A DNA stretch of 64,000 bases from Kordia antarctica (lineage in GTDB: Bacteria; Bacteroidota; Bacteroidia; Flavobacteriales; Flavobacteriaceae). Below are positions 4,158 to 56,136 of this stretch, in pieces. The stretch is taken from contig NZ_CP019288.1 in the NCBI RefSeq assembly GCF_009901525.1, positions 3,501,501-3,565,500 of the forward strand, in the 5' to 3' direction. The notes beneath the pieces were generated by a model that was given only the letters and a program-made list of their open reading frames with translations, did no database searches and was not told the origin of the DNA. The position numbers were made by a program, and so were the translations under genes. The stretch's first letter is position 1, and each line of letters starts with the position of its first letter.

Positions 4158-4331
4158 ATGAAAAAACGAAATTTAAAAAATCTCAACTTAAACAAAAAAG
4201 TAATTAGTAGTCTAAAAATTGAAGCTTTAAAAGGGCAGTTGAGAAGAGGTTCGGACGATCCCAATTGTAGCGGTGATACAGCAATGGTATATACATGTCA
4301 TCCAGAAACGTGTAATAATCAAGAAAGATAA
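4158..4331 (+). CDS. RiPP-precursor-like peptide, 57 aa
   Basis: A 57-residue peptide too short for most gene finders. The leader MKKRNLKNLNLNKKVISSLK matches the lysine-rich leader shared by the other small peptides here and resembles Bacteroidota class I lanthipeptide / TIGR04149-type leaders. The presumed core carries three Cys plus Ser and Thr (DPNCSGDTAMVYTCHPETC). There is no clear Gly-Gly; the leader boundary may be near LKGQLRR. A second mini-ORF begins 5 bases after the stop, and a strong terminator follows. No modification enzyme is nearby. The product and its role are unknown. Confidence 0.65.
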   Translation: MKKRNLKNLNLNKKVISSLKIEALKGQLRRGSDDPNCSGDTAMVYTCHPETCNNQER

Positions 4332-4336
4332 TTGAT

Positions 4337-4426
4337 ATGTTAGAAAAATTGACACAATACGAAGTTCAGCATGTTAATGAGATTAGCGGCGGACTCACAA
4401 CGGTAGAATATATTATTATTTTATAA
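4337..4426 (+). CDS. 29-aa peptide with double-Gly site
   Basis: A tiny ORF, MLEKLTQYEVQHVNEISGG followed by ten residues. Its leader is unlike the MKK leaders: it looks like the short GG leaders of bacteriocins exported by peptidase-containing ABC transporters (Leu and Glu at spaced positions, then ISGG). The ten residues after GG are hydrophobic and hold two Thr and no Cys. It starts 5 bases after the previous peptide stop and ends just before a terminator, so the two are co-transcribed. It may be chance; the GG site and the position are the only support. Confidence 0.4.
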   Translation: MLEKLTQYEVQHVNEISGGLTTVEYIIIL

Positions 4427-4436
4427 TCCTTAACTC

Positions 4437-4464
4437 AGAGCGAACTTCGGTTCGCTCTTTTTTC
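4437..4464 (+). terminator. Rho-independent terminator after the first peptide pair
   Basis: A perfect stem AGAGCGAAC-TTCG-GTTCGCTCT is followed by a T run, a very strong terminator with a tetraloop. Confidence 0.9.
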
Positions 4465-4756
4465 TTTCCTTTCCTGCCACTTTAGTTATCAATACTTCTT
4501 CTATTGAAATTTGGCAATTTTCATACCAAATCAGCTATATATTTTAAATTAAAGGAACTACAATTATCGAATTCTCAAGCTCTTATTCACAAGCTTCAAA
4601 CCAGCTTTTCCACCTTGACTTGCTGTCATTTAACTGCATTTATATGCAATTTATAAATTGCAAGAACTCTTTCGCACCTTTACATTGTTTCAGTAGGTTT
4701 TAGGTAGTATTATCTTCTATATTTCAATTATTATTCACAAATTAAAACTTACTAAT
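4465..4756. promoter_or_regulatory. upstream region of the tandem peptide pair
   Basis: No gene is seen in these 292 bases. They hold the palindrome AATTTATAAATT at 4648-4659 (extended GCAATTTATAAATTGC), about 100 bases before the next peptide start. Similar AT-rich palindromes lie upstream of other peptides. A weak -7-like TATATTTC lies near 4719-4726. Confidence 0.35.
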
Positions 4757-4933
4757 ATGAAAAAACGAAGTATGAAAAAATTGGAATTAAAGAAAAAAGT
4801 AATTTCAGACATGAGTCCATCTGAAATAAAAGCAGGCTACGCAGGCACTTGGGTTTGTGGTGTTTCATTACTGTGTACAATTTCTGTATCTACAGCTTAC
4901 ACAAATGCTGACACGCATTGTAATTGTGCCTAA
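4757..4933 (+). CDS. lanthipeptide-precursor-like peptide, 58 aa
   Basis: Leader MKKRSMKKLELKKKVISDMS, then a boundary near EIKAGYAG. The core is rich in Thr, Ser and Cys (GTWVCGVSLLCTISVSTAY, then TNADTHCNCA), with four Cys and at least seven Ser/Thr, as needed for several lanthionine rings. Of all peptides in the window this core looks most like a true class I lanthipeptide. A 58-residue sister gene follows after 47 bases and has nearly the same upstream 25 bases and the same first codons, so the two arose by tandem duplication. No LanB/LanC is in the window, so modification is inferred only. Confidence 0.7.
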   Translation: MKKRSMKKLELKKKVISDMSPSEIKAGYAGTWVCGVSLLCTISVSTAYTNADTHCNCA

Positions 4934-4980
4934 ACACGATTTCTTGCATATTTATTATTCACTAATTAAAACTTACTAAT

Positions 4981-5157
4981 ATGAAAAAACGAAGCATTAA
5001 AAGATTAGAATTGAACAAAGAGCGTATTTGTATTTTGACAGATAGCCAACAAATGGAAATAGAAGGCGGTGTAACTCCTACAGTAACTACGGTTACATGG
5101 TCGTCTGCACATTGTATCATAATTATAACAGCTACAATAAGCGCTAAATTTTGCTAA
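4981..5157 (+). CDS. lanthipeptide-precursor-like peptide, 58 aa (sister of previous)
   Basis: Leader MKKRSIKRLELNKERICILT, a clear cleavage-type site MEIEGG near residue 30, then a Thr/Ser-rich core (VTPTVTTVTWSSAHC, then IIIITATISAKFC) with two Cys and about ten Ser/Thr. Such a ratio of hydroxy residues to Cys is typical of lanthipeptides with dehydrated residues. It is co-transcribed with the preceding peptide and ends in a terminator shared with the convergent hydrolase gene. Function unknown. Confidence 0.7.
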   Translation: MKKRSIKRLELNKERICILTDSQQMEIEGGVTPTVTTVTWSSAHCIIIITATISAKFC

Positions 5158-5178
5158 ATTTTTGCTGTTAACATATTT

Positions 5179-5206
5179 AAAAGTGAACTTCGGGTCACTT
5201 TTTTTT
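5179..5206 (+). terminator. terminator of the tandem peptide pair
   Basis: The stem AAGTGA/TCACTT with loop ACTTCGGG is followed by eight T. It touches the end of the convergent hydrolase gene. Confidence 0.8.
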
Positions 5207-6056
5207 ATGCATTTTTTATAAACTTAATCGTTGTTTTTATAACTTCTTCCAGATTGTTTGGCAATTTCAATTCGTTCCACGGATGACGCGCGCCAAAAAC
5301 ATGATCGGCTTTTTCAATGAATTCTAATGTGCTTTTCGGATTCCATTTATGTAAATTTTCTGCATCTTTTAGTGGAACTGCAGGATCTGAAGTTCCATGA
5401 ACAATCAATTGTGGAATTTTCAAGTTTTTGGTCGCTCTTTCAATATCTAAACGTGTTTCATTCGCTTTAAAATCTTCAAAAAACTGATAAAAATGTGGCA
5501 TTTCTTGCTTCGTTCTACCATTTACAACATACATTACATTTGTTTGTTTCCACTCTTTTAAAGCTTCTCCTTTCGGGAAATGTGACGCGTAATCTGAAAC
5601 GCCAGCCCAAGAAATTACCGTAGAAATTTTAGGTTCTTCTTCTGCTTTTATAATTACAATTCCGCCGCCGCGCGAATGACCAATTAAAGAAATATGTTGT
5701 GTGTTCGCTTCCGCAGAAAATACAAAAGAATCTTTCATGATATGATTGATCACGAATTGCAAATCATCTAGTTCTTTGGTATAATTGTTCTCACCGAATG
5801 CTTCCAAATCTGGAAAGTCAATTGGTTGTTCCATCGTTCCGCCATTATGCGAAAAATTAAACTTCACAAAGAAAAATCCTGCGTCAGCAAAAGCTTCTGC
5901 AACCAAGTCCCACGCGCCCCAATCTTTGAAACCTTTATAGCCATGACAAAATATGACAACAGGCTTTGCTTGATCGTTCTTTTTGAAAAAGTAATCAATC
6001 AGTATATCTTTTTGGTTAATGCGCGTTAAAACGTTGTTTTTGAGCTTCTGTATCAT
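5205..6056 (-). CDS. alpha/beta hydrolase (dienelactone hydrolase / prolyl oligopeptidase type)
   Basis: A 283-residue cytoplasmic serine hydrolase. FCHGYKGFKDWG forms the oxyanion region, Ser in IGHSRGGG is the nucleophile, Asp in VHGTSDPAVPL and His in ADHVFG complete the triad. I chose the ATG at 6056, two bases after the stop of the nuclease gene, instead of a longer form starting at 6098 that would overlap it. It is probably the last gene of the minus-strand unit with the AddB-like nuclease. Natural substrate unknown; family members act on esters or short peptides. Confidence 0.85.
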   Translation of the reverse strand: MIQKLKNNVLTRINQKDILIDYFFKKNDQAKPVVIFCHGYKGFKDWGAWDLVAEAFADAGFFFVKFNFSHNGGTMEQPIDFPDLEAFGENNYTKELDDLQFVINHIMKDSFVFSAEANTQHISLIGHSRGGGIVIIKAEEEPKISTVISWAGVSDYASHFPKGEALKEWKQTNVMYVVNGRTKQEMPHFYQFFEDFKANETRLDIERATKNLKIPQLIVHGTSDPAVPLKDAENLHKWNPKSTLEFIEKADHVFGARHPWNELKLPNNLEEVIKTTIKFIKNA

Positions 6057-6058
6057 GA

Positions 6059-8824: not shown

Positions 8825-8833
8825 GTTGTAAAA

Positions 8834-8868
8834 ATAAAAAAACGCCACGATATATCGTGGCGTTTTTT
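8834..8868 (-). terminator. terminator after the OmpA-like gene
   Basis: A perfect palindrome AACGCCACGAT-ATCGTGGCGTT is flanked by A and T runs. It stops the OmpA transcript before the nuclease gene. Confidence 0.9.
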
Positions 8869-8894
8869 ATGAAGTTATTTTGAGTTTAAATTAA

Positions 8895-10265
8895 TTATCT
8901 AACTAATTTAATATCTACTCTTCTGTTTTGTGCTCTACCTTTTCTTGTCTTGTTAGAGGCAATTGGCTGAGATTCACCGTATCCAGTAGCTGTAAACTTG
9001 TTACTTACTTTACTTCTTAAGTATGTTACAACTGCATTTGCTCTTGCATTAGATAATTTTTGGTTTAAAGAATCAGAACCAACGCTATCAGTGTGACCAC
9101 CAATTGTGAATTCTTCTTTCGGGAAACCTTTTAATAACTCAGCAATCTTGTCTAAGATAGCATACGTTTCAGGCTTGAAAGAATCTTTTCCAGAATTGAA
9201 ATATACAGTTCTAGCTAAGTTGTCTAATACTGTAATTTCAGTTACAGTCATTCTAGCGATTGGAGGACATCCATCGTTTTCAGCAACACCAGCTACTTCT
9301 GGACATCTGTCATCTTTGTCTAATACTCCGTCACCGTCTTTGTCAGTCCAAGGGCAACCTTTGTTTGCAGATGGTCCAGCTTCAGTTGGGCAGTTATCTT
9401 TAGCATCAGTGATTCCATCACCGTCAGTATCAGGACATCCGTTCATTGCAGCAGTACCTGCTACTTCTGGACAGTCATCTTTACCATCAGCAATTCCGTC
9501 ACCGTCAGTATCAGGACATCCGTTTAATGCAGCTAAACCTGCAGTATCAGGACAGTCATCTTTACTGTCTTCGATTCCGTCACCGTCAGTATCAGGACAA
9601 CCATTAAATTCTGGTAAACCTTTTACGTCTGGACAAGCGTCATCTTTATCAAAAATTCCATCATCATCGGTATCTTTTCCACCAAACTTGATAGCAATAC
9701 CTGCTAAGTGTTGGAAGTGAGGAGCTAAATAATCCTCAAAAGAATGCTTGTAAGATGTTTGAATGTTGAATGCAATGTTTTCTGTGAACCAGTAGTTGAT
9801 ACCTAAACCTGCGTTTACTGTACCAGCTCCGATATCATCAACCCAAGTGTAACCTCCACCAACTTCTACATAAGGATCAAATTTCCCCATGTTGTAAAGT
9901 TCATTGATGTTGTACTTGATGTTTGCATCGAATCCGTAGTAAGTTAAATCTTCAACTGCTACGTCTCCATACTTTTCGATTCTGTTTACAGAACCTCTAA
10001 CTCCAACAGAAAATCCGTCTCCAACATATTTGGAAACACTAACTGAAGAAAGTGTTGGTAGGATGTTATAATGGTCTCCTACATTAAAATATTCGTCAAA
10101 CCACTTTCCTGTTATACCAGCTGCTTCCATATCATTTGTTGGATAGAAGTCAACAGCATTAACCGAGATGTTAATCTGCCAAGGGTTATTTGAGTCTTGA
10201 GCTTTTACGTTGCTGAATCCTACTACAAGCAACAAAGCAACTAAAAATCTGCTAAGATGTTTCAT
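8895..10265 (-). CDS. OmpA family outer-membrane protein with thrombospondin type 3 repeats
   Basis: A 456-residue outer-membrane protein that anchors to peptidoglycan. A signal peptide (residues 1-22, cut after NVKA) is followed by an eight-strand-type beta-barrel to about residue 195. Then come about five thrombospondin type 3 repeats (DTDGDGIxDxKDDCPxxAG) that bind calcium and hold paired Cys. The C-terminal OmpA domain contains TVYFNSGKDSF and GHTDSVGSDSLNQKLSNARA with the peptidoglycan-binding Asp/Arg positions. It is monocistronic with a well-matched promoter and a strong terminator, consistent with an abundant structural protein. Confidence 0.93.
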   Translation of the reverse strand: MKHLSRFLVALLLVVGFSNVKAQDSNNPWQINISVNAVDFYPTNDMEAAGITGKWFDEYFNVGDHYNILPTLSSVSVSKYVGDGFSVGVRGSVNRIEKYGDVAVEDLTYYGFDANIKYNINELYNMGKFDPYVEVGGGYTWVDDIGAGTVNAGLGINYWFTENIAFNIQTSYKHSFEDYLAPHFQHLAGIAIKFGGKDTDDDGIFDKDDACPDVKGLPEFNGCPDTDGDGIEDSKDDCPDTAGLAALNGCPDTDGDGIADGKDDCPEVAGTAAMNGCPDTDGDGITDAKDNCPTEAGPSANKGCPWTDKDGDGVLDKDDRCPEVAGVAENDGCPPIARMTVTEITVLDNLARTVYFNSGKDSFKPETYAILDKIAELLKGFPKEEFTIGGHTDSVGSDSLNQKLSNARANAVVTYLRSKVSNKFTATGYGESQPIASNKTRKGRAQNRRVDIKLVR

Positions 10266-14879: not shown

Positions 14880-15158
14880 TTAGCACACATATCCTGGACA
14901 AGAGATTCCTCCTGATGGATTGCAATTATTTGTGCCACAGTTATTTGTGCCACAGTTGTTTGTTTGGTTATTACATCCTCTATAATTAGTGTTGCAATTT
15001 TCTGTAAGTCCACAACCTGGATAACATGTTTCTAATAACGACAAATCAATTGGTTCACATTGAAATCTTGATCCGCCGCCAACAACTTGATCTTTTGCTA
15101 AATTAGAAACTTGTGTTTTCTTGAATTGTAATTTTTTGATTAAATTCTTTTTTTTCAT
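14880..15158 (-). CDS. Cys-rich RiPP-precursor-like peptide, 92 aa
   Basis: Leader MKKKNLIKKLQFKKTQVSNL, then a Gly run (DQVVGGG) near residue 28 and a long core with eleven Cys. The core holds the tandem pentapeptide CGTNN, encoded by two perfect copies of a 15-base repeat at 14926-14955, so it has grown by repeat expansion. It has its own terminator and shares an upstream element with the 79-aa neighbour. The Asn/Cys-rich repeats are unlike standard lanthipeptide cores, and multiple disulphides or another modification are possible. Function unknown. Confidence 0.7.
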   Translation of the reverse strand: MKKKNLIKKLQFKKTQVSNLAKDQVVGGGSRFQCEPIDLSLLETCYPGCGLTENCNTNYRGCNNQTNNCGTNNCGTNNCNPSGGISCPGYVC

Positions 15159-15368: not shown

Positions 15369-15608
15369 TTAAAAAGGATCAGGACAAACATCTGGATTGC
15401 ATGATCTCGTTATACATTCGTCAGTAAGACATGTTGCAATTGTTATACAAGGACAGGTGTTAAATTCTGTACAATTTTGAGTAAGACATGTTCGTGGTTT
15501 TGTTGACCAAGGTTCAGCATCAAATCCTCCAATAACTTTAGCGTTGGAAAGATTAGAAATTTGCGCCTTTTTAAGCTGTAATTTTTTGACTAGGTTCTTT
15601 TTTTTCAT
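15369..15608 (-). CDS. Cys-rich RiPP-precursor-like peptide, 79 aa
   Basis: Leader MKKKNLVKKLQLKKAQISNL, then NAKVIGG at about residue 28 and a core with nine Cys and many Thr (CLTQNCTEFNTCPCITIATC, then CLTDECITRSCNPDVC). It is a paralogue of the 92-aa peptide: leader, upstream element and terminator are all alike. It stands alone between terminators. No modification or export gene is adjacent. Function unknown; a lanthipeptide-like or disulphide-rich secreted peptide is plausible. Confidence 0.7.
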   Translation of the reverse strand: MKKKNLVKKLQLKKAQISNLSNAKVIGGFDAEPWSTKPRTCLTQNCTEFNTCPCITIATCLTDECITRSCNPDVCPDPF

Positions 15609-16586: not shown

Positions 16587-16589
16587 AAA

Positions 16590-38821: not shown

Positions 38822-38992
38822 TTAACGTTGTTGTTGATCCGTAAAACAAAGATCTTCTCCAATATAGATAGCAGATTTACATAGTACCGAAGCAAACGAA
38901 GTTGTTGGTATTAATCCACCCTTTGCTGCATCAGCATTTAATACAGAAATTGAATGCTTTTTTAATTGCATTTTTTTAAGACTTTTTTTCAT
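38822..38992 (-). CDS. RiPP-precursor-like peptide, 56 aa
   Basis: Leader MKKSLKKMQLKKHSISVLNA, a Gly-Gly site in DAAKGG at residue 26, then a core of 30 residues with two Cys and several Ser/Thr (LIPTTSFASVLCKSAIYIG, then EDLCFTDQQQR). I start at the ATG at 38992 because the longer frame upstream shows no leader-like features. Terminator shared with prfH. AATTTATAAATC lies 87-98 bases upstream. Function unknown. Confidence 0.68.
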   Translation of the reverse strand: MKKSLKKMQLKKHSISVLNADAAKGGLIPTTSFASVLCKSAIYIGEDLCFTDQQQR

Positions 38993-41650: not shown

Positions 41651-41725
41651 ACAACATACCTTCCTTTTTTTAGCTATAAATATGTGCTTACTTAGTTTCA
41701 TAATTAATTTAAAAATATACAATTA

Positions 41726-41859
41726 TGAAAAACAAAGTACAGAAAAACCGAGAAGTAAAAAAGTTGAATTTTAAAGTAATTAAAGTTTCTAAAGTAGACC
41801 AATCTAAGATTGTTGGTGGCGGATGGGAAGACTATTGGTCATATGTCTTTTGTATGTAA
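41726..41859 (+). pseudogene. RiPP-precursor-like peptide with frameshift
   Basis: The start MKNKVQKNREVK is followed in frame by Ser and a stop. One base back, the frame continues as KLNFKVIKVSKVDQSKIVGG, then GWEDYWSYVFCM and a stop at 41859. Adding one A to the five-A run at 41758-41762 restores a 44-residue peptide with the MK-rich leader, IVGGG site and a short aromatic core ending in Cys-Met. A strong terminator follows. It is either a fresh null mutation, a slippage product or a sequence error. Confidence 0.6.
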
Positions 41860-41932: not shown

Positions 41933-42127
41933 TCAAGGTTTCGTTGCTGGTTCTCCACCAATAGTTGTGTTTGTACATTGAAAAGCATTCACAGAAGCAC
42001 AAATTTCAGTTTTACAATCTTTTACAATGTCCGAATGTGCGATTTTATGAGTATCTGCGCCACCAACTATTGCGTCAGTATTTTTAAGATGCGAAATCTT
42101 TATTTTATTTAGAATAAACCTTTTCAT
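41933..42127 (-). CDS. RiPP-precursor-like peptide, 64 aa
   Basis: Leader MKRFILNKIKISHLKNTDAI, Gly-Gly in IVGGAD at residue 22-23, then a core with three Cys and many Ser/Thr (DTHKIAHSDIVKDCKTEICA, then SVNAFQCTNTTIGGEPATKP). It is convergent with the frameshifted peptide and lies just downstream of the membrane regulator gene on the same strand. Upstream element shared with its neighbour. Function unknown. Confidence 0.68.
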   Translation of the reverse strand: MKRFILNKIKISHLKNTDAIVGGADTHKIAHSDIVKDCKTEICASVNAFQCTNTTIGGEPATKP

Positions 42128-42205: not shown

Positions 42206-43912
42206 TTATGAATTATCACGGGTTTTATCAGTACTTTTCTGCAATTCTTTTACATACATAGAAGGATGCATTCCAGTTATATTTTTAAACACTTTTGAAA
42301 AGGTTTCTCTTCGTGCATATCCAAATTCTTCCGCGATAGCTTTGATAGAATACAACCTAATTTTCTTGTTGTTTTTTAAGGTTACTAAAGCTGTATTAAT
42401 TCGGAGTTCATTTAAATATGCAGTAAACGATTGTCCTTTATAGGTATTAATTACGTGTGAAAGATAAGCAGTATTTGTTTTTAATTTTTTAGCTGTATAA
42501 CTCAAATTACAATCTACATGCAAAAACTGTTGTTTCTTTTCAAACTTTTCCAACGCTTTTAAAATTTGTACAACACCTTCATCATCAATTGCTAACTCTG
42601 TTTTTTGCTTGTTGGAAGGAGCTGAAATTTTTGGAGTTTCAATCTTTTTTATATGTGCTAGAAGTTTATCAAAACGTTGTCTGTTTCGGCGTTGATTTCG
42701 TTTAAACAAAACAAAGAAAATAACAATGCAACTCAGCAAAATACTAGCAATAATATACAAATAATAGACAGTTTTTTGTTGTTTTTTGCGTTGTGTATTT
42801 ACCTCAAAAAGCTCTTTTTTTAAAGTAGAAATATCATAATCTTTTATAGTATGACTCACTTTTTTATTAGCAAGATTATTCTCTTTGGTAAACGTTTCAA
42901 ATAACTTGAAATTTTCGGTTGCTTTTTCAGCATCATTCTTATGAAAATACATTTTAGCCAAATGATAATAGACTTCTTCTAACTCAGGAAGCGAAAAATG
43001 TTCAGTATTGACCAATGTCTTTATTTTTTCGAAATAAGCAATTGCATTATTTTCATCATCTAATGCTTGATGGTTTTTTCCAAGATATAAATAAAACGTT
43101 ACAAATTTTTGCTCTTGACTCAACTGTTTTATAGCATTTTCTAAAGACAAAGCTAAGGCTATACTTTGCTGATATTTCTGCTGTTGATAAATAATAATGA
43201 CTTTATTTAAAGACAAATCTGTGTGCAATTCCAAATATGTGTTTTCGGGTATTTTTTGCAATCCTCTATTTGTATATACCAAAGCTGAATCAGGAATTTC
43301 CATTCGCAAATACGTGTCCGCAATAGCAAGATTATGAACGATTTCCAACCGATCATATTCAGTAGAATTTATACTTTTAATCGCTATAAGATTCTGCCCA
43401 AAATCTTCCAACGCGCCTGGAAAATCTTCAACCTGCTTTTTTACCAATCCTATATTATAGGTCATCACAATTAAATCTCTAAAACTATCAATTTTAGTTG
43501 CAATTTCCTTTGCTTTCAAATACTGCTCAATGGCTTTTTTATACGTTCCATTGGTTAAATAAATATTTCCTTTTTGCGTATAATTTTGCAACAATAAATC
43601 ACTATCATTAATCTGTTGTGCTATTTCTAAAGATGCATCTGAAAAATCAATGGCTTCCGCCGAATTTCCTAACTTCGAATAAATATATCCTTTACGATAC
43701 AAAGCTTTTGCAATACGTTGTTTATCCGTTCCTTTTAATGCTGAAACATATAAAGCGTCAACATATTTTTTTGTTTTTTTGGGAGTTGTGTAAGAAGAAA
43801 TATATAGAGTTTCTAATTCTTCAAATGATTTTGTTGCCAAAGAATCTGTTTGCGCAACTGCAAAGGTTACACTACACAATAAAAAAAATGTTATGAAAAA
43901 AGACAGTTTCAT
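42206..43912 (-). CDS. membrane-bound TPR and AraC-type HTH regulator
   Basis: A 568-residue regulator in a layout common in Bacteroidota. Signal peptide (residues 1-20), periplasmic tetratricopeptide repeats to about residue 370 (LLQNYTQKGNIYLTNGTYKK, LYLGKNHQALDDENNAIAYF), one transmembrane helix (YYLYIIASILLSCIVIFFVL, near 390-412), and a C-terminal cytoplasmic AraC domain (LRINTALVTLKNNKKIRLYS, IAEEFGYARRETFSKVFKNI). It probably senses a periplasmic signal and controls genes through the HTH. Its stop lies 78 bases before the peptide gene start on the same strand. Confidence 0.88.
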   Translation of the reverse strand: MKLSFFITFFLLCSVTFAVAQTDSLATKSFEELETLYISSYTTPKKTKKYVDALYVSALKGTDKQRIAKALYRKGYIYSKLGNSAEAIDFSDASLEIAQQINDSDLLLQNYTQKGNIYLTNGTYKKAIEQYLKAKEIATKIDSFRDLIVMTYNIGLVKKQVEDFPGALEDFGQNLIAIKSINSTEYDRLEIVHNLAIADTYLRMEIPDSALVYTNRGLQKIPENTYLELHTDLSLNKVIIIYQQQKYQQSIALALSLENAIKQLSQEQKFVTFYLYLGKNHQALDDENNAIAYFEKIKTLVNTEHFSLPELEEVYYHLAKMYFHKNDAEKATENFKLFETFTKENNLANKKVSHTIKDYDISTLKKELFEVNTQRKKQQKTVYYLYIIASILLSCIVIFFVLFKRNQRRNRQRFDKLLAHIKKIETPKISAPSNKQKTELAIDDEGVVQILKALEKFEKKQQFLHVDCNLSYTAKKLKTNTAYLSHVINTYKGQSFTAYLNELRINTALVTLKNNKKIRLYSIKAIAEEFGYARRETFSKVFKNITGMHPSMYVKELQKSTDKTRDNS

Positions 43913-44352: not shown

Positions 44353-44598
44353 ATGAAAAAAAGAATTTTAGAAGTAAAAGGAGTTACTGAGTTAACAAAA
44401 AAAGAGCAAACGCTTATTAACGGGTCTGCTGGACCAATTGCGTTTTGTGGCCCTAATGGAGATTGCCCTCCTGGATCAACATGTGACGGAGATTATTGCT
44501 ACGCTGATGGTGGCGGAAATCCTGGTGGTGGTAATTGCCATGAACCTACTAGGTTCTGTATACCTCCAGAAACTGGTTGTGGATGTGTTTACTGTTAA
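44353..44598 (+). CDS. Gly/Cys-rich RiPP-precursor-like peptide, 81 aa
   Basis: Leader MKKRILEVKGVTELTKKEQT differs from the LxLxK type but keeps the MKKR start; cleavage may be near INGSAG. The core has ten Cys and many Gly and Pro (FCGPNGDCPPGSTCDGDYCY, then ADGGGNPGGGNCHEPTRFC, then CGCVYC), a pattern more like a disulphide-rich peptide. It is followed by a terminator that overlaps the pbpC stop. It lies right after the scar of duplicated gene tails. Confidence 0.65.
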   Translation: MKKRILEVKGVTELTKKEQTLINGSAGPIAFCGPNGDCPPGSTCDGDYCYADGGGNPGGGNCHEPTRFCIPPETGCGCVYC

Positions 44599-47602: not shown

Positions 47603-48483
47603 ATTTTTCCCATAAACCAATCAAAGCCATAGATTTCTCTATATTCTTTGGGTATTTTAGTTACTATAATATCTTTTTTGCCTTTTTCAATCCAAAATCT
47701 TTTATTTGATCGTATGATGTTGCCTGTTTTTTCTCCTAGCTTATTTTTTTGAAAAGAAATGAATTCTATGGTGTCAATAGCTTCTTCATTCCATTTGTAT
47801 TTGTACATTTCTGTCTCTCCAAGATGTCCATAACAGATACCTTTAATTAGATGCTCTTTCGGTGAAAACGTTGGGTTGATAAAATGATAGCGATCAGAAA
47901 AACTTCTATTATCTTTTTTTAATATAAATACTTCGCTAAATGCTTTTAAACAGCAACCAGAACTACCATAGCCATTGATAACGAAATCCTTAAGATTATC
48001 ACCATTAATGTCTTGAATTGTGTCAGAAATATACGTTATTTTCCAGTGTTTATTTTCCAAAACAGTTTCTATATCATTTTTCTTTATCACATATATATTA
48101 TGATAAATTTCGCCCATATCACTTCTTGCAATTAATAAATGACGCTCTTTTTCTGAAAAGAGGTGACCAATAGATATACGAATTGTTACAGTGCTTAAAC
48201 TATCTTCAAATTCTTCATAATGTGTTTCATAACGCTCTTTTTTAAGATGCGGATTTGCTTTTAAAATAGCGCGATTTAGTATGTTATACATTCTCATACT
48301 ATAAGCATTTTTTTGCTCTTCAAGTTGTTGACTATTCTTCAATACTTGTTGCTCTTTCGTCAAAAACGGTTTCGTTTCCTCTTGAATGACAATAGACTTC
48401 TCTGTTTTGTCACCGTTTTTATTCGCGCAAGCATAACAAAGCAGTAACAAAAAACACAGCAACATATAAATAACTCGCATCAT
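47599..48483 (-). CDS. lipoprotein with FG-GAP-like segment, unknown function
   Basis: A 294-residue lipoprotein (lipobox LLCYAC, Cys near residue 19). A central DINGDNLKDFVINGYGSSGC resembles the FG-GAP/XAC2610 type of calcium-binding loop. The rest is not recognised. It overlaps the upstream alpha-2-macroglobulin stop and the downstream ABM start by four bases each (ATGA), so the three are one translational unit. Confidence 0.75.
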   Translation of the reverse strand: MMRVIYMLLCFLLLLCYACANKNGDKTEKSIVIQEETKPFLTKEQQVLKNSQQLEEQKNAYSMRMYNILNRAILKANPHLKKERYETHYEEFEDSLSTVTIRISIGHLFSEKERHLLIARSDMGEIYHNIYVIKKNDIETVLENKHWKITYISDTIQDINGDNLKDFVINGYGSSGCCLKAFSEVFILKKDNRSFSDRYHFINPTFSPKEHLIKGICYGHLGETEMYKYKWNEEAIDTIEFISFQKNKLGEKTGNIIRSNKRFWIEKGKKDIIVTKIPKEYREIYGFDWFMGKI

Positions 48484-51400
48484 TTCACAACCTCAATCCA
48501 TTGTCCTTTAGTACGCACAAAATAATCATTATCATACATCGCTTCTGCTTGAATTCCAGGTAAATAGTATCTTCCTAAATAGGAAGCATTCAGCAATACA
48601 TTGAATGTTTTTGATCTTCTTCGTGGCAAATCAAAATAGAAATTCACACGATCATCTCTAATATCGGTATGTCTTGCTTCGCTTGATTCTGTATTTCCGT
48701 AATCGGTAAAACGTGTATTCACAATTTCCCAACCAGAAGGGAAAATCTCTGTCAAAGCAACATCGCCCAAAAAGATAGCTCTATCATTAGAAATAGTAAC
48801 TGTTGCCATAAAATCAGTTCCTTGTTGCAACTTCGTTACATCAATTTCGTTTCCAGCTTTATCTTTATACGTCACTCTAATTGTTAAATGTCGTTTCTCA
48901 GCCAATTCTTCGCCAAGCGGTAATTTTCCAGTACTCAACACACGCACAAACAAAACATTATCTTCTTTGTTTTCAATTTGTAACGAATTTGCACCTTTTA
49001 CAATAGTTAAATCACGTTGTGCAATTGCTTTAGAAGTTTCAATATTTTGCTGATTATTTCCATTACTGGAGAATTGCATTTTGATATTTTTACCACCATT
49101 TTGCGTCACCATTTTTCCCATTGCTAACAAACTATACGCGGTAGTTTGTGTACTCATCCAATCGCTTGAAGATAATCTTTTTGCAATTATTTTTGACATA
49201 TCAATCGCTTTTTTATCTTTCAAAATCACCATTGTTTCCATTGCCATTGCACGATTTCTATCGATGGATCCATAGGTATAATCATACCGATTTCTTGAAG
49301 GTTCAAAGTTAATATTTGCCGTTTTTGCAATTTGTTCCCCTGCTTCTTTCTGTGAAGCCAATGCATACGCCGCCGCCAATCGCCATTTGGCATCGTTTGA
49401 TAATTTATTGGATTCTCGCAATCGGTTCATGGAAGCTAAATCTGGATGACCAGCCAACGCTAACGTGTACAAACGATATGCTTGCGCTAAATCAGCATTG
49501 TAGTAATTATCGTTATTAGTACGCCATGCACGCGCTGCATTTTTCTGAAAACTAATCCATTGACTCATAAAATTGAGTGGTAATATATAGCCTTTCTTTT
49601 CAGCTTCAATCATAAAATGTCCAGCGTAACTTGTTCCCCATTCGTTGGTTCTATTTTCGCCAATCCAATAACTCAAACCGCCATTTGGACGTTGAAAATG
49701 TGCCAATCGTTTGATTCCTTTTTCAATATTACTTTCTATTTGTTGCTTTTTTGAAGTTGTAATATCGAAAATATCGTTTAAGTATAATTGCGGAAATACA
49801 CTTGAAGTCGTTTGCTCAATACAACCGTGCGGATATTGAATTAAATATTCCATTCGCGAGGTGAAATCCATTGGCGGCAATGTAGAAAACTCTACAACTG
49901 CGGCGTTTGTTCCTGCAACGCCGAATGTATCAAAATTGAGTGTTTTAGCCGTTTTTCCATCTAAAGTAACTTCATGAATTTTCTTCGTAATCGGATTCGG
50001 ATTTTCTACATCAATTTCAATTTTATAGGATGCTTTTTCGCCGTTTCCTGTGGCAATCACTTCTATAGTTCGAATGCCTTTTGCTTCGCTCACATCTAAG
50101 TCAAAATAGACCATTTTTTCATCTGGTTTATCAAATGTAAGTGTCTGGTTTGCGCTTCCAATTACAGAAATTCCGTCTTGCAATTTCAGTTGAAGCGATA
50201 CATTTTTCACCTTATCTTCCATCGCAAAAACCGTCACAGGAAGTGTTACTTTTTCGCCTGGACTCAACTTTCGTGGCGCAGTTGCCAACACCATTAAAGG
50301 TTTTTTTACTTGCGATGATTGTTCTGCATTTCCATACGCTTCTGTTTCAGGGTTTCCTGCAACAACCATTGTACGAACAGCGCCAATATAATTTGGCATT
50401 TCAATTTTGTGCGACTTTGTTTGTCCAGCTTTGAGCTGAAAAGGACCTAGATACACAACCACAGGTTTAAAACGATTTGCTTTTTTGTTTTTAGCGCCAT
50501 TTCCGCCATCGCCACCACCAACTGCAAATACTTGATCTATGTTTCCGCTAAATGCACCAATAATGTCATCATAAATATCCCAAGTGCGAACGCCAAGTGC
50601 TTGTCGTTGGTAAAAAACGTCCCAAGGATTTGGTGTTTTAAATCGAGTTAAATCTAATAAACCTTCATCAACAACGGCAATTGTATACGTCATTGCTTTT
50701 TTGTTTTCTTCGCTTACTTTTACCGTAAATGATTGTTCTGGTCGCAACGTTTCTGGTACGGAGATTTTAGGTTTTAAAATCGTTAAAGGATTTTCTACCA
50801 ATATTGGAATGACTCCGTATAATCGAATTGGTAAATCGTTGGAAACGTTATCATGTTTTTGAACCAACGAAATATTTACAAATACATTTGGTGCCATTTC
50901 TTCTGTAATCGGAATCGTTGTCGTGGTTTGCTCTTTTGAAGTTTTTACCCATTTTGTACTGAGAACTTCTGTGCCATTTTCGACACTTACCAATGCGCGT
51001 CCGCCTTTTCCAGAAGGAAACGTAATCGTAGCTTTTTCGCCAACATTGTATGTTTCTTTATCTGCTGCAAAAATTAACATTTTCGCCGCTTCTGAGTTTC
51101 CGTCGTTGCTTCTGCGCCACCAATTTTTATAAAAATAAGTCGTCATTCCTGTTGCGTGACCACTTTTTGCGTCGTATACACGAATTAAATAACGCCCACG
51201 ATTGTCATCAGGAATGTTGAGGTTAAAACTTCCTTTTCCGTTTGCGTCCGTATTGACTCTTAAGGTTTTATAGTGTTCATGATAGTCACTTCCCGAATAG
51301 GAAGAAAGGTCTTCATACGACGAACTCCACCACCAACGCCAGTTAATTTCATAGATTTTTACTTCGAGTCCGTTGCGTTTGATCGGGTTTCCTTTATCAT

Positions 51401-54017
51401 CAACTGTAACGATATCAAATTTTTGATTTTCATCTGTATAAAATGAACCATATTGTTTTGGTTCGGGTGATTTTAATCCAACAAAAGAAATATATGGTGC
51501 AAAGTTTTTGGAGAATGCATCAATAGAGAAATCGCCGCCATTTTCAAATACGCGCGTTAAAAAAGAAGCGCGCAACATTCCTGGCGCTTTTTTCTCTACG
51601 TTTATTTTTTTAGAGATTTTTACCAAACCATCTTCATCTAAATTTCCTTCGAACATGATAAATTCTTCTGCATTAAATTCACGTGTCGGATCGTTGAATT
51701 CATAGTTTGGAAATTTCTTGAAAGACGCTTTTGTATTCGTTAATTTTATACTGACTTCTGCTTTTAAATTTTTAGCTGGCGCGCCATGCAACCAAGCCGC
51801 TTTTAGTGTTCCTTCAATTGGTCTAGAATTGGCTAATATTTCATCGTCAAAATCAATATTAATTTTTAATCGATTCGGTTTTACTGTTTCTACTTTAAGT
51901 GTTTTAGAGAAATTTACGCCACCAACATTTACATTGGCTTCCCAATTTCCAGTTGGCGCTTCTGATGCAGTCGGAACCGTAAATTTATAGAAATTTTCTA
52001 CGCCTTCCGTCAAGACGTTTTTGTAGATTAATTTTCCACGCGCATCCGTAACTTCCATTTTTACTGGATGATTTTTTGGAAGCGGACTTCCTTTGTCATT
52101 TAAAACAAATGCTAAGTGTAAGGTGTCGCCAGGTCGCCAAACGCCGCGTTCTCCGTAGATGTAACCATTAATTCCTTTTTTAATTTTTTTCCCAGAAACA
52201 TCAAACTTACTCATGGACAACGAACTTCCATCATTCAGTTTTACGAACGTCATTTGTTTGTTTTTGGATACAATAGCAAAGTATGCGTTTTTGTCTGCGT
52301 CAATGGTAATTAACCCTTCAGTATCCGTTCGTCTTGAATAAATTTCTTGTTGTTGGTAATTGTATAAAGTTACTTTTGCATTGCCTACAGGATTTGTAGA
52401 TAGAATGTCGCTTACCGCGAAATAGTACGATTTGTTTTCGCCTTTTTTTACAATTACACCTAAGTCAGAAGCTATTATGTTTGCTGTTAAGAAACGATCT
52501 TTTAGATAGTACGAATCTGTACAAGGATTTTCACGATCATTCCAATTGTAGCTGTAGTTTCGGAAATCATATATTTCGTTGTCCCAATATTCTTCTTCAT
52601 TTTCGTCTTCATCTTCTCGGTTTTGGTAATAATCGCCGCGCGAACTTGCTTCTTCAGTTTTATCAGCAACAGCATCACAGGTATATAATGCATAGTCTTT
52701 TTTGAAACCAATTTCTATTTGATAAATAGCGCCAGGTTCTGCTTTGAATAGTTCTGATAAGTCAATTCCGTACGTTTTCCATTGTCCATCGTTTTCGTCT
52801 TTATTTTTGATAAGATTAATGGTTTTTTTGGCAACACGTCTTCCAACTTTACGAATGCTATACCGATCAATTTCGCCAATGCTATTATCTTGTAAAAACT
52901 GAAGCACATTTTTTTGGTATATTTTTACAATTCGCACATCTACAGATTTCAAGTTCATCGCTTGAAAGTTATACGTCAAATTTTTAGAATTTGGTAAAAT
53001 AACACCTTTGCTAATGGCGCGTAATTGTGGTTTTTGTTGTTCGAATGAAATGGGTTTTGTGAAATTTCTTTTTAGTTTGAAACCTTCTTTGTTTTTGATT
53101 CCTGTAAAAACTTCCAACATTGTTGTGCCTGTAACTCTGTTTCCAGGATATACATTTAAAATGTTTCCATCAACAGCATAGGTTATGTTTTGTTGATCTT
53201 TTACAGTTACCAATCCTTCAAAGTTTTGATTTTTGAGTAATGGATCCGAGAAGTTAATACTGATTTTTTGTTCAGGACTTTCCGAAACATTTATTTCAAT
53301 GATAGAAAAATTGTTTTGACCAGAAATGAGATACGATTTTGAACCTTTTGTGTCTGCACCAATTGATTTTCCTGTCCACGAAATTTGTATTTCCGAATCG
53401 TCAATTGGTCTGTTAATGCTGTCTATAGTAAATTCGTAGGTTGTATTATTCAACACATCAGCACTCCATTTTACAGCTAATTCCTTGCCGTTTTGTGTAG
53501 CTTTTAGTAAATCTTTTAGTTTATCATTCGGAATAACATCTGCGGAACGCAACATTCCGTTTAAGTATTGCCATTCCTTGGAATATGATTGTAAATCGTT
53601 GGTAACTATCGTAAAGTTTGGTGCAACAGTTTTGAACGCGAATGTATATTTTTTGAATTCGTCAGCAACATTTTCATAGATCTCATCTAATTGAAGCGTT
53701 ACGCTATATTCTGTGTTTGGCTTTAGTGATGTTTCAGGTACAAAGCGCAAGGTTTTGTTGTTTTGAACAAACAGTTTTCCATTCACTCTTGGATTTATTT
53801 TTAGGAGCTTCACAGGAACTTCCTGATCATTTGCCCAATCGGTAACTTCTTTTTGCAATCCTATGATAATAGGTTCATTTACAGAAACAGTTCCAGCAGT
53901 TGTTTGATAAATGTAGTCTTTGAATTCAAAGATGTTGTCTGCTTCAGGACTTTCCGTTTTACACGAGAATAATCCAACAAATACCCAAAAAAGGATGAAA
54001 ATAGTAGTGTTGCGCAT
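48480..54017 (-). CDS. bacterial alpha-2-macroglobulin lipoprotein
   Basis: A protease-trapping cell-envelope protein of 1845 residues, thought to defend the cell together with PBP1C. The lipobox ends at Cys19 (FWVFVGLFSC). An N-terminal Ig-like region, MG domains (residues about 590-760: GYIYGERGVWRPGDTLHLAF), a bait region and a thioester domain follow. The thioester motif is intact: PHGCIEQTTSSVFPQ. I chose the ATG at 54017 because it gives a compact lipoprotein signal; a start at 54053 adds 12 residues. The gene precedes two small coupled genes and pbpC. Confidence 0.94.
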   Translation of the reverse strand: MRNTTIFILFWVFVGLFSCKTESPEADNIFEFKDYIYQTTAGTVSVNEPIIIGLQKEVTDWANDQEVPVKLLKINPRVNGKLFVQNNKTLRFVPETSLKPNTEYSVTLQLDEIYENVADEFKKYTFAFKTVAPNFTIVTNDLQSYSKEWQYLNGMLRSADVIPNDKLKDLLKATQNGKELAVKWSADVLNNTTYEFTIDSINRPIDDSEIQISWTGKSIGADTKGSKSYLISGQNNFSIIEINVSESPEQKISINFSDPLLKNQNFEGLVTVKDQQNITYAVDGNILNVYPGNRVTGTTMLEVFTGIKNKEGFKLKRNFTKPISFEQQKPQLRAISKGVILPNSKNLTYNFQAMNLKSVDVRIVKIYQKNVLQFLQDNSIGEIDRYSIRKVGRRVAKKTINLIKNKDENDGQWKTYGIDLSELFKAEPGAIYQIEIGFKKDYALYTCDAVADKTEEASSRGDYYQNREDEDENEEEYWDNEIYDFRNYSYNWNDRENPCTDSYYLKDRFLTANIIASDLGVIVKKGENKSYYFAVSDILSTNPVGNAKVTLYNYQQQEIYSRRTDTEGLITIDADKNAYFAIVSKNKQMTFVKLNDGSSLSMSKFDVSGKKIKKGINGYIYGERGVWRPGDTLHLAFVLNDKGSPLPKNHPVKMEVTDARGKLIYKNVLTEGVENFYKFTVPTASEAPTGNWEANVNVGGVNFSKTLKVETVKPNRLKINIDFDDEILANSRPIEGTLKAAWLHGAPAKNLKAEVSIKLTNTKASFKKFPNYEFNDPTREFNAEEFIMFEGNLDEDGLVKISKKINVEKKAPGMLRASFLTRVFENGGDFSIDAFSKNFAPYISFVGLKSPEPKQYGSFYTDENQKFDIVTVDDKGNPIKRNGLEVKIYEINWRWWWSSSYEDLSSYSGSDYHEHYKTLRVNTDANGKGSFNLNIPDDNRGRYLIRVYDAKSGHATGMTTYFYKNWWRRSNDGNSEAAKMLIFAADKETYNVGEKATITFPSGKGGRALVSVENGTEVLSTKWVKTSKEQTTTTIPITEEMAPNVFVNISLVQKHDNVSNDLPIRLYGVIPILVENPLTILKPKISVPETLRPEQSFTVKVSEENKKAMTYTIAVVDEGLLDLTRFKTPNPWDVFYQRQALGVRTWDIYDDIIGAFSGNIDQVFAVGGGDGGNGAKNKKANRFKPVVVYLGPFQLKAGQTKSHKIEMPNYIGAVRTMVVAGNPETEAYGNAEQSSQVKKPLMVLATAPRKLSPGEKVTLPVTVFAMEDKVKNVSLQLKLQDGISVIGSANQTLTFDKPDEKMVYFDLDVSEAKGIRTIEVIATGNGEKASYKIEIDVENPNPITKKIHEVTLDGKTAKTLNFDTFGVAGTNAAVVEFSTLPPMDFTSRMEYLIQYPHGCIEQTTSSVFPQLYLNDIFDITTSKKQQIESNIEKGIKRLAHFQRPNGGLSYWIGENRTNEWGTSYAGHFMIEAEKKGYILPLNFMSQWISFQKNAARAWRTNNDNYYNADLAQAYRLYTLALAGHPDLASMNRLRESNKLSNDAKWRLAAAYALASQKEAGEQIAKTANINFEPSRNRYDYTYGSIDRNRAMAMETMVILKDKKAIDMSKIIAKRLSSSDWMSTQTTAYSLLAMGKMVTQNGGKNIKMQFSSNGNNQQNIETSKAIAQRDLTIVKGANSLQIENKEDNVLFVRVLSTGKLPLGEELAEKRHLTIRVTYKDKAGNEIDVTKLQQGTDFMATVTISNDRAIFLGDVALTEIFPSGWEIVNTRFTDYGNTESSEARHTDIRDDRVNFYFDLPRRRSKTFNVLLNASYLGRYYLPGIQAEAMYDNDYFVRTKGQWIEVVK

Positions 54018-54123
54018 GATGCTTTTTTTTGTAAAATAGGCAGACTTTTTCATAATTGTAGTGCTTAATGAGTATTCGTTGCTATGTATTTAGTATTCGT
54101 AAAGTAGTTGAAGTTTTCCGTTT

Positions 54124-55170
54124 TTACTCTTTGTAAATTCCAACGGTAATCGTTCCATTTTCATCAACTGTTGCTCGGTACATTCCGGCAGTATTAAATT
54201 CAGCTACTAAGTTTCCTTTTGCATCAATGGCAATAATTCCGCCATCGCCGCCCATATTTTTTAGTTTGTTTTGAATCACTTCTTTTGCAGCTTCTTGTAG
54301 CGACAAGTTTTTGTATTCCATTAAAGCAGAAATATCATACGCAACATTTGCTCTGATAAAATATTCGCCGTGTCCAGTTCCAGAAACTGCACAGGTTTTG
54401 TTGTTTGCATACGTTCCTGCGCCAATTATTGGAGAATCACCAATACGATTCCATTTTTTATTGGTCATTCCGCCTGTAGAAGTTCCTGCGGCTAAGTTTC
54501 CGTCTTTGTCTAAAGCAACACAACCAACAGTTCCGAATTTGTAATCGTTAATATATGGATCAACATAGGCACTTTTGCTGTCGTCTGAAAGATTTTGCTT
54601 CGCATGTAATAACGATTGATATCTTTTTTCTGTGAAGAAATAATCAGGATTCACAACTTCCAATCCTTGTGAAGCGGCAAATTCTTCTGCGCCTTCTCTA
54701 GCAAGCAATACATGAGCTGAGTTTTCCATAACTTTTCGCGCAGCCGAGATTGGGTTTTTTAAATTCGTTACTCCAGCAACTGCGCCAGCATTTAACGTTT
54801 TTCCTTCCATGATAGAAGCGTCTAATTCATTTTTTTCATTGTTAGCAAATACTGCACCTTTTCCCGCGTTGAATAATGGCGAGTTTTCTAAGATATGAAT
54901 GGTTTGTTCTACGGCATCTAAACTTGTACCGCCATTTTGTAAAATTTCGTAGCCTTTTCTAGCTGCTTTTTCTAATGTTTCTTTGTATTGTGCTTCTAGT
55001 TCAGGAGTTAGATTCTTTTTTAAAATCGTTCCAGCGCCGCCATGAATGACCAAGCCGAAGTTATTTTGCGAAGGGTTAGAACTTTTAACTTCCTTTTTTG
55101 TTGAGGTTTCTACACAACTCGTCAATAATAATAATAATAAAACTGTTGTAAAAAAGACATAAACTCTCAT
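54124..55170 (-). CDS. isoaspartyl peptidase / L-asparaginase, lipoprotein form
   Basis: A 348-residue Ntn hydrolase that removes isoaspartyl residues from peptides or hydrolyses asparagine. The lipobox ends at Cys19 (LLLTSC). The precursor self-cleaves before the Thr in FGTVGCVALDKDGNLAAGTS; IHGGAGTI and GAGTYANN follow the family. It stands between alpha-2-macroglobulin and the peptide cluster on the same strand. Confidence 0.93.
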   Translation of the reverse strand: MRVYVFFTTVLLLLLLTSCVETSTKKEVKSSNPSQNNFGLVIHGGAGTILKKNLTPELEAQYKETLEKAARKGYEILQNGGTSLDAVEQTIHILENSPLFNAGKGAVFANNEKNELDASIMEGKTLNAGAVAGVTNLKNPISAARKVMENSAHVLLAREGAEEFAASQGLEVVNPDYFFTEKRYQSLLHAKQNLSDDSKSAYVDPYINDYKFGTVGCVALDKDGNLAAGTSTGGMTNKKWNRIGDSPIIGAGTYANNKTCAVSGTGHGEYFIRANVAYDISALMEYKNLSLQEAAKEVIQNKLKNMGGDGGIIAIDAKGNLVAEFNTAGMYRATVDENGTITVGIYKE

Positions 55171-55220
55171 AAATATTTTTTAATTAGTTAACATTTAAAA
55201 ATACAGCTTTTTAAGCATAA

Positions 55221-55257
55221 AAAAGCACTTAAAACTTAAGTAGTTTTAAGTGCTTTA
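55221..55257 (-). terminator. terminator of the 76-aa peptide gene
   Basis: A perfect 14-base stem AAAGCACTTAAAAC/GTTTTAAGTGCTTT with flanking A run. Confidence 0.9.
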
Positions 55258-55290
55258 GTAATTTAAAGGAATACATTGTTTAGAAAGTGA

Positions 55291-55521
55291 TTATTTAACA
55301 CATCCGTGAACCTCCTTTGATTGGCACGTACATGCAGTATTTGCTTCACTGACACGAAAACAAGTTAATGCTTCTTCAGTAAGAAATCCGCAACCACCGC
55401 CAATAGCACAGGTTTCACAAGTAATGTATGATTGCGCTGGCGCGCCACCTTTTACATTTCCAAGGTTAGAAATTTGATTTTTCCCTAATGATAACTTTTT
55501 AATGATTTTCTTTTTTTTCAT
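55291..55521 (-). CDS. Cys-rich RiPP-precursor-like peptide, 76 aa
   Basis: Leader MKKKKIIKKLSLGKNQISNL, Gly-Gly in NVKGGAP at residue 25-26, then a core of 50 residues with eight Cys and several Ser/Thr (SYITCETCAIGGGCGFLTEE, then SEANTACTCQSKEVHGC). It has its own terminator and follows the l-m peptide pair. Function unknown. Confidence 0.72.
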   Translation of the reverse strand: MKKKKIIKKLSLGKNQISNLGNVKGGAPAQSYITCETCAIGGGCGFLTEEALTCFRVSEANTACTCQSKEVHGCVK

Positions 55522-55611
55522 AAGAATGTAAAATTGATTAGTGCCTTAAATTACATAAATTCAAATGGAATAGCTGTTGTTTTTCAGATTTTTATTTAGA
55601 AGTGATTGCAT

Positions 55612-55650
55612 AAAAAAAGCTTCAAAAGTAACTACTTTTGAAGCTTTTTA
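55612..55650 (-). terminator. terminator of the two-peptide unit
   Basis: AAAAAGCTTCAAAAGTA and its complement form a perfect 17-base stem, followed by T on the minus strand. Confidence 0.9.
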
Positions 55651-55670
55651 GAGTTTTAAAATCTAGCTTT

Positions 55671-55910
55671 TTATAATATGTCACATGGTCTATCAACAGA
55701 TAGTTGACATCCTAAATCCCAAGAAGGTTCACATTCACAAGCCGAATATAATTCGCTATACCAAGTACATTCGTATATATCATTTGTATATACACATTCT
55801 TCTAAATTTCTAGTAAGCTGAATAGGTCTCGCTGCATTTTGAGCACCACCATTTAAGTTAGAAATGGAAGATTTTTTGAGCGATAATGATTTTAATTTCT
55901 TTTTTTTCAT
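55671..55910 (-). CDS. Cys-containing RiPP-precursor-like peptide, 79 aa
   Basis: Leader MKKKKLKSLSLKKSSISNLN, Gly-Gly at 21-22 (NGGAQ), then a long acidic core with six Cys (CVYTNDIYECTWYSELYSAC, then CEPSWDLGCQLSVDRPCDIL). It begins 22 bases after the stop of the next peptide upstream, so both are on one transcript. Function unknown. Confidence 0.7.
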   Translation of the reverse strand: MKKKKLKSLSLKKSSISNLNGGAQNAARPIQLTRNLEECVYTNDIYECTWYSELYSACECEPSWDLGCQLSVDRPCDIL

Positions 55911-55932
55911 GATATTCTATTTTTAATTTTAT

Positions 55933-56136
55933 TTAAACAGGACAAGCAGCTTCAACAGAAGCACATGCACCTACAGTCATGCACAAGCAAGTATCTATTC
56001 TACTAAAACATCTAGCGTCATTTGATTTAGGATTTATTGCAACTCTTACTGGAACAATACCTCCATGTATACTTGAAAGGCTTGAAATTTCTTTCTTCCT
56101 TAAATCTAGCTTTTTACTAAGTTTCTTTTTTTTCAT
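55933..56136 (-). CDS. Cys-rich RiPP-precursor-like peptide, 67 aa
   Basis: Leader MKKKKLSKKLDLRKKEISSL, Gly-Gly at 25-26 (SIHGG), then a core with five Cys (ARCFSRIDTCLCMTVGACAS, then VEAACPV). I choose the ATG at 56136 since it matches the family leader; a start at 56214 would add a hydrophobic stretch that contains the likely promoter. First gene of a two-peptide unit. An upstream element like that at 15200 and 15649 is present. Confidence 0.72.
   Translation of the reverse strand: MKKKKLSKKLDLRKKEISSLSSIHGGIVPVRVAINPKSNDARCFSRIDTCLCMTVGACASVEAACPV

Follow-up and report, generated by a model that had tools for sequence, protein, structure and literature searches.

The genome of Kordia antarctica encodes about 143 short leader-bearing peptides, and we consider it likely that these are class I-type lanthipeptide precursors served in trans by a single locus that encodes LanB, LanC and a C39-peptidase exporter. 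The window analyzed here is a stretch of 64,000 nucleotides (positions 3501501-3565500) on the one closed 5,500,985-bp contig of this bacterium (G000:C1). A sequence-only reading of the window had reported twelve small peptides with a shared leader, and all twelve open reading frames (ORFs) are present where it had placed them, with lengths of 44-92 residues. The same reading had proposed a central machine acting in trans on a large precursor family and had suggested looking for leaders and LanBC loci in the whole genome; with about 143 leaders, and with one LanB, one LanC and a C39 exporter at a single locus, the proposal is now well supported as a prediction. The scatter that it had described in the window is also real, but it extends across the genome and the genus and is accompanied by a pairing with regulators that had gone unmentioned.

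Eleven of the twelve window peptides carry the Bacteroidota class I lanthipeptide leader, as had been suggested for the group, while the remaining one (44353-44598) belongs to another double-Gly family. The assignment to a precursor type held for the class I lanthipeptide leader and failed for the TIGR04149 natural product precursors, as none of the twelve matches TIGR04149 at E<=1. NF038153 (lant_leader_L1a of NCBIfam) matches nine of the twelve with E-values up to 0.32, four of them (starting at 4981, 14880, 15369 and 55933) above its cut-off of 22 bits and five (4158, 4757, 38822, 55291 and 55671) below it, and has no match to the peptides at 41725, 41933 and 44353. Among lanthipeptide families, the window leaders match L1a and L1b only. 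A leader profile built from K. antarctica (A1) matches 11 of the 12, with E-values from 1.4e-4 to 7e-9; nine of these leaders are themselves rows of the profile, and the two that are not, at 4757 and 55671, score E=2.1e-8 and E=8.9e-7. In a sample of 60 genomes (11 Kordia, K. antarctica included, and 49 others), A1 at E<=0.001 had no match in 45 of the 49 non-Kordia genomes, one in three and four in one, which argues that the window leaders are not a product of chance. Their density is also high, with 11 precursors in the window against the approximately 1.7 expected from 143 in 5.5 Mb. That the window lacks the modification enzymes was confirmed, as genome-wide profile searches at E<=0.01 placed no LanB, LanC, C39 or SPASM match in it.

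Over the whole genome, NF038153 gave 87 matches at E<=10, of which 86 were precursor-like by eye and one (3623482, inside an IlvH-like gene) was excluded. A1 was made from these 86 leaders, minus eight near-duplicates or odd starts and plus three added, and returned at least 142 matches at E<=10 among the best 150 of 238 candidates that were scored. In the DNA fetched around the A1 places and elsewhere we counted about 143 precursors, with a floor of 10.5 bits and a match starting within the first 8 residues, and all genome-wide counts below refer to this set. Two sets of stretches at roughly even intervals (780 kb in all), the second of which was placed by hand and has at least three stretches overlapping places already known for precursors, held 10 precursors, and as nine of these were already in the A1 list, the list appears near complete. 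The first spaced set had 4 precursors in 400 kb, under the genome mean because the precursor genes are clumped: the 143 fall in 84 groups, 50 of them single genes, on both strands alike (71 plus, 72 minus). GG is present in 132 of the 143, and Cys and Ser/Thr are both found in the core of 141. The strict LxLxKx5L motif occurs in 72 (shuffle mean 0.8), including six of the 11 window members, and its loose hydrophobic form in 139, a count made without a shuffle control. Leaders are far more alike than cores, with mean similarities of 0.50 vs 0.23.

The candidate machinery lies about 170 kb past the window. PF04738 (LanB) matches one place in the genome, with 504 bits, as does PF05147 (LanC), and the sole LANC_like match is that same LanC. 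The locus, at 3733.7-3744.7 kb, contains LanC, LanB, a separate elimination protein (PF14028), the best C39-peptidase ABC exporter of the genome, HlyD, a TPR-AraC regulator and one intact precursor. LanC retains WCYG and CHG and LanB retains RMSSRCTPFG, which we take to be the catalytic motifs, and among solved structures LanB best matches 9g04 (4.7e-51), with NisB at 2.1e-24. Only one of the 143 precursors has LanB within 15 kb, so the clustering that is usual, if not strictly defining, for class I systems is absent here. PF03412 (C39) matches two further places. One belongs to a separate RiPP-like locus (RiPP, ribosomally synthesized and post-translationally modified peptide) at 2722000-2736000, with its own C39 ABC exporter, a radical SAM protein that is nearest to FxsB/YhhB but below the NCBIfam cut-offs, and a weak match to an HExxH hydroxylase; the other is a weak match adjoining a different GG peptide. 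At about 3740.1 kb on the minus strand (~14.1 kb in L002) the LanBC locus also holds a second precursor-like reading frame that is out of frame with its own ATG, and intact relatives of it are found at three other LanBC loci (L235, L237 and L242).

We propose that about 140 precursors, dispersed along the chromosome, are substrates in trans for the products of the LanBC locus. LanB, the glutamylation protein, would read the leader that they share (MKK..K.LxLxK..IS.L....GG), Ser and Thr of the core would be dehydrated with the help of the separate LanB elimination protein, and LanC would close thioether rings by the addition of Cys. The C39 exporter, partnered by HlyD, would then cleave after Gly-Gly and secrete the core. 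A further layer may be provided by approximately 18 precursors that each lie about 90 bp behind their own membrane TPR-AraC regulator. What was observed comprises the genes and how many there are, the conservation of the leader, the makeup and geometry of the cores, synteny, and the constraint on three sets of orthologs; every chemical step, and the service of all precursors by one machine, we infer.

Core composition and geometry are in line with such modification. Cores contain 11.7% Cys, 11.3% Thr and 7.3% Ser, Cys is found in the leader of only four of the 143, and odd and even numbers of core Cys are balanced (72 and 69), which speaks against plain disulfides. In 134 de-duplicated cores, Ser/Thr are enriched at C-4, C-5 and C-6 (z 4.5, 6.5 and 5.7) and depleted at C+4 to C+6, and the excess of Ser/Thr before Cys (asymmetry 228, against a standard deviation of 28 in the flip null) was reached in none of 2000 flips. 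This is the geometry that N-to-C lanthionine rings would favor, a pattern compatible with rings rather than proof of them. Three ortholog sets are under constraint, with cores less constrained than leaders. For the peptide at 55671 (seven Kordia sequences), pN/pS is 0.15 in the leader and 0.29 in the core (corrected dN/dS 0.09 and 0.16), in a set chosen by a core motif, a choice that excluded three of the other nine Kordia loci and favors conserved cores. The sets for 38822 (six sequences; leader 0.35, core 0.57) and 41933 (four sequences; 0.44 and 0.58) were chosen without a core motif and are uncorrected, with silent sites near saturation, and their weaker values leave our weighing of the explanations unchanged.

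The arrangement is a property of the genus. LanB is present in exactly one copy in all 11 Kordia genomes, and each has from 110 to at least 140 A1 matches (E<=0.001, with at most 140 candidates scored per genome). LanC, LanB, the elimination protein, TPR-AraC, HlyD and C39 occur together in all ten LanB loci of the other Kordia genomes, where LanB identity is 87-95%. We also surveyed 395 other Bacteroidia genomes with A1 at E<=0.001 and at most 19 candidates scored per genome; the leader was present in 23 of them, with at most 10 per genome among the matches listed, and 21 of these 23 encode LanB, as compared with 54 of the 395 overall (p=2.9e-18). Outside Kordia, 47 of the 53 leaders have a LanB no more than 15 kb away, in contrast to the single one in K. 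antarctica, which argues that a cis cluster is the common plan and Kordia the departure. At finer scale, nine Kordia loci matching 38-64 kb of the window hold 41 precursors in 230 kb, whereas 71 outgroup loci (1.65 Mb) gave one weak precursor match, itself behind a TPR-AraC gene.

Several observations weigh against this interpretation. Many leaders have diverged, as only 20 of the 87 NF038153 matches pass the curated cut-off, the strict motif is limited to about half of the precursors, and two of the 143 cores are without Cys. Ser/Thr are also enriched at C+2 (z 7.5), beyond what a simple ring rule predicts. The ten other Kordia genomes have 3-6 LanC-like matches vs one in K. antarctica, so cyclization there need not rest on one enzyme. 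Outside Kordia, six of the 53 leaders are on contigs that lack a LanB, and two genomes (G020 and G036) carry LanB loci but no LanC match, making dehydration without rings possible in related systems. In those two loci (L232 and L227), LanB is found with TPR-AraC, a precursor and a C39 exporter, and the products could be dehydrated but perhaps uncyclized. The extra LanC domains of other Kordia genomes, for example at L092-L094, lie in open frames of 974-982 residues that are perhaps LanM-like and were not found in K. antarctica.

The peptides could instead be plain double-glycine peptides that C39 exporters secrete unmodified or with disulfides, with LanBC serving only its adjoining precursor. 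The prevalence of GG, the three C39 places in the genome and the coexistence of another GG-peptide family in which most cores are rich in Cys are what such an explanation would lead one to expect, but it does not account for the tie between leader and LanB outside Kordia, the lack of an even Cys bias, the position of Ser/Thr on the N side of Cys, or the resemblance of the leader to the class I LxLxKx5L motif in the part of Walker et al. 2020 (PMC7268733) considered here, and we regard it as unlikely. Quite unlikely, in our judgment, is that radical SAM/SPASM or other enzymes modify subsets of the precursors besides LanBC. The genome has 11 SPASM matches, with a precursor 4.9 kb away from the best of them (1638312), so contact between some precursors and other enzymes is conceivable, and the FxsB/YhhB-like locus has an exporter of its own; however, only two of the 11 SPASM places are within 10 kb of a precursor vs 4.5 expected at random, and the nearest (785713) scores below the cut-off. 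As SPASM matches are no closer to precursors than random places, we rejected a radical SAM partnership as the principal explanation.

That LanBC works on a few precursors, most of the scattered copies being decaying duplicates, would fit the tandem copies, their gain and loss between species and the out-of-frame precursor at the LanBC locus. Decay is harder to reconcile with the window place at 55-56 kb, which is occupied by 1-6 precursors in all nine other Kordia loci, or with pN/pS below 1 in all three ortholog sets tested, out of many sets, and we consider it very improbable. This place (55.3-56.1 kb of the window; L095-L100, L105, L152 and L162 elsewhere) is a tandem array with a fixed position whose copy number varies by species, and should be a good site for studying the birth and death of cores.

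Alongside trans modification by LanBC, the pairing of precursors with TPR-AraC regulators adds a second feature. In the fetched K. antarctica DNA, 18 of 19 TPR-AraC genes are followed within 300 bp by a co-directional precursor, compared with 20 of 486 other ORFs of at least 250 residues (p=1.2e-21), a rate biased upward by the fact that most stretches were taken for their precursors. The window pair (regulator at 42206-43912, precursor at 41933-42127) and the LanBC locus both show this order, and the unpaired regulator is at ~3670616-3672469 (L243). In other Kordia genomes all 17 regulators are paired (14 of 14 at LanBC loci and 3 of 3 at the position corresponding to the window pair), many being mutual orthologs and thus not independent, and outside Kordia four of five are, one of them (L228) by eye, with a peptide that abuts the regulator stop and has no Cys. 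Regulator and precursor are 76-209 bp apart (median 90, n=38). Among stretches whose choice did not depend on precursors or LanB, seven of eight regulators are paired (window, L219, L250, L095, L096, L098 and L133, but not L169), although four of the seven represent a single orthologous position, L250 had been set by hand over a region already known, and L243, which was obtained on account of its regulator, is left out of this count. The pair at L219 came to light even though its precursor had escaped the genome-wide profile search. In paired precursors Cys are fewer (median 2.5 vs 4, p=4e-4) and leader scores are weaker, so that these precursors may be a distinct functional class.

The window regulator has a signal-like N terminus and a hydrophobic stretch near residue 385, and its predicted structure (pLDDT 86.5, pTM 0.62) combines a TPR superhelix with a long helix that spans the membrane stretch and, at the C terminus, a helix-turn-helix (HTH). 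LGN TPR domains lead its fold matches and the peptide receptors Rap and NprR are found lower down, which makes the modeled fold compatible with peptide binding, no more. The pairing suggests a receptor-peptide array, in which each TPR-AraC protein probably controls the neighboring peptide and may sense the same peptide. It is possible, and we hold it only tentatively, that the pairs are receptor-pheromone modules in which the exported, processed peptide binds a periplasmic TPR domain, a reading that can stand together with trans modification by LanBC. The frequency of pairing inside and outside Kordia, the narrow spacing, the transmembrane helix and the presence of Rap and NprR among the fold matches favor such modules; on the other hand, the pairing rate is inflated by sampling, TPR folds match many proteins, the topology is predicted, and the pairing may mean nothing beyond control of the peptide gene.

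A broader and about equally tentative extension is many-channel lanthipeptide signaling, in which a genome has approximately 18 paralogous TPR-AraC receptors in the membrane, every one with its own lanthipeptide pheromone encoded about 90 bp downstream, and about 120 further effector peptides, with pheromones and effectors all matured by one LanB-LanC-C39 machine. Such a system would join a Rap-Phr-like logic, of independent origin in Bacteroidota, to a class I equivalent of prochlorosin biosynthesis. Rap-Phr systems comprise several paralogous pairs per genome. As in Rap-Phr and other RRNPP systems of Bacillota, a gene for a TPR receptor adjoins a gene for a small exported peptide in paralogous pairs, though our adjacency of 18/19 comes from a partly biased sample; unlike their intracellular TPR receptors, the Kordia regulator is a predicted membrane protein with an AraC-type HTH, its peptide has a lanthipeptide leader, and sensing is putative. 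Receptor-peptide pairs of the RRNPP type are described in PMC10075063, as far as the part covered here goes.

One-enzyme, many-substrate lanthipeptide biosynthesis has been described for the class II LanM of marine picocyanobacteria. In the covered part of PMC10783134, ProcM has 29 and SyncM 79 substrates, precursor genes can be scattered, and prochlorosin function is called unknown. The Kordia system resembles the prochlorosins and synechococsins of Prochlorococcus and Synechococcus in having one modifying enzyme, many precursors, variable cores and scatter, and differs from prochlorosins, with their class II LanM and Nif11-family peptides, in its class I LanB, separate elimination protein and LanC, its roughly 140 precursors, its phylum and its regulator pairing. 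Membership in the prochlorosins was rejected, as the enzyme of the locus is LanB plus LanC instead of a class II LanM and the window leaders match L1a/L1b rather than Nif11, and we would call the system a class I counterpart of the prochlorosin arrangement by function, by analogy rather than by descent. The LxLxKx5L class I leader with GG and the split LanB are described in the covered part of PMC7268733, and the leader motif, GG site, C39 protease and split LanB are shared with the Bacteroidota class I lanthipeptides (PMC7268733, NF038153, pinensin), which the parts seen of these sources describe as gene clusters, whereas one of 143 precursors is near LanB in K. antarctica.

Kordia has already been reported as rich in RiPPs, among them lanthipeptides and radical SAM peptides, and as many as 176 RiPP precursors were given for a Bacteroidota genome (PMC11118758, in the parts covered); that study annotated enzymes within ten genes of a precursor, and those parts mention neither a lone LanB nor a trans model nor TPR-AraC pairs. 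Kordia clusters were also counted in PMC10734526, and 'lanthipeptide' is among the types of the nine antiSMASH clusters of K. antarctica IMCC3317 (PMC7477175), as far as the portions of both considered here go. In our searches of open-licence papers, supplements aside, we saw no account of one LanB serving Kordia precursors or of TPR-AraC/lanthipeptide pairs. The richness of the genus is published, and the regulator pairing looks new. If the proposal is true, about 140 natural substrates of one LanB/LanC pair would exceed those of ProcM and SyncM, in another phylum and with tRNA-dependent chemistry, and would form a natural library of leader-matched cores for the study of LanB; the genus may produce ring peptides of a very large family and may perhaps sense them as well. 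The TPR-AraC pairs are a testable lead to the role of at least some of the peptides, and our results suggest that cluster-based genome mining near enzymes would miss nearly all precursors of such systems.

Upstream of the precursors, an expectation-maximization motif search of 136 distinct regions yielded nothing beyond an AT-rich element that lies about 20-25 bp ahead of the ATG and contrasts weakly with controls (0.9 vs 0.44, width 20). The promoter box of Bacteroidota is TAnnTTTG, and it was not enriched upstream of the precursors (0.14 vs 0.28). A common precursor promoter is not claimed. The palindromic 8-mer TTTATAAA was found within 150 bp upstream of 31 of the 143 precursors vs 16 of 415 control genes.

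On the plus strand of the window, 4158..4331 (57 residues, NF038153 16.6 bits, A1 E=7e-9 as an A1 row) has the LxLxKx5L leader with G-Q replacing G-G and three core Cys, 4757..4933 (58 residues, 11.2 bits) has an A-G cleavage-like site and four core Cys, and 4981..5157 (58 residues, 27.9 bits) has GG and two core Cys. Two Cys-rich cores are encoded on the minus strand at 14880..15158 (92 residues, 22.3 bits) and 15369..15608 (79 residues, 23 bits), with 10 and 8 core Cys after GG. The minus-strand precursor at 38822..38992 (56 residues, GG, two Cys, 16.2 bits) has homologs in five of the nine other Kordia loci of the region, and a short plus-strand precursor at 41725..41859 (44 residues, A1 E=8.9e-6, an A1 row) has GGG and one Cys. 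The precursor of the window pair (64 residues, minus strand, A1 E=1.4e-4, an A1 row), with a short leader, GG and three Cys, lies 79 bp downstream of its regulator, also on the minus strand, which has one predicted transmembrane helix and an AraC-type HTH_18 and is its proposed sensor partner; homologs are found behind orthologous regulators in L095, L096 and L098. The tandem array, all on the minus strand and all with GG, consists of 55291..55521 (76 residues, seven Cys, 15 bits), 55671..55910 (79 residues, six Cys, WYSELY family, 20.8 bits) and 55933..56136 (67 residues, five Cys, 24.3 bits). The window protein at 48480-54053 has 78-88% identity in nine Kordia records.

The second double-Gly family, in which leaders resemble (L/I)(S/T)KKEQ..INGG and most cores are rich in Cys, includes the plus-strand window peptide at 44353..44598, which has a Cys-rich core, no NCBIfam or Pfam match and orthologs in three of the nine Kordia loci, as well as peptides elsewhere on the chromosome at 685233, 685493, 685859, 2785208, 4232494 and 30929. 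The one at 2785208 begins 347 bp before the weak third C39 protease match. A 29-residue ORF at 4337-4426 of the window has a similar leader of the LTxxE..xISGG type and a core that is a mere stub.

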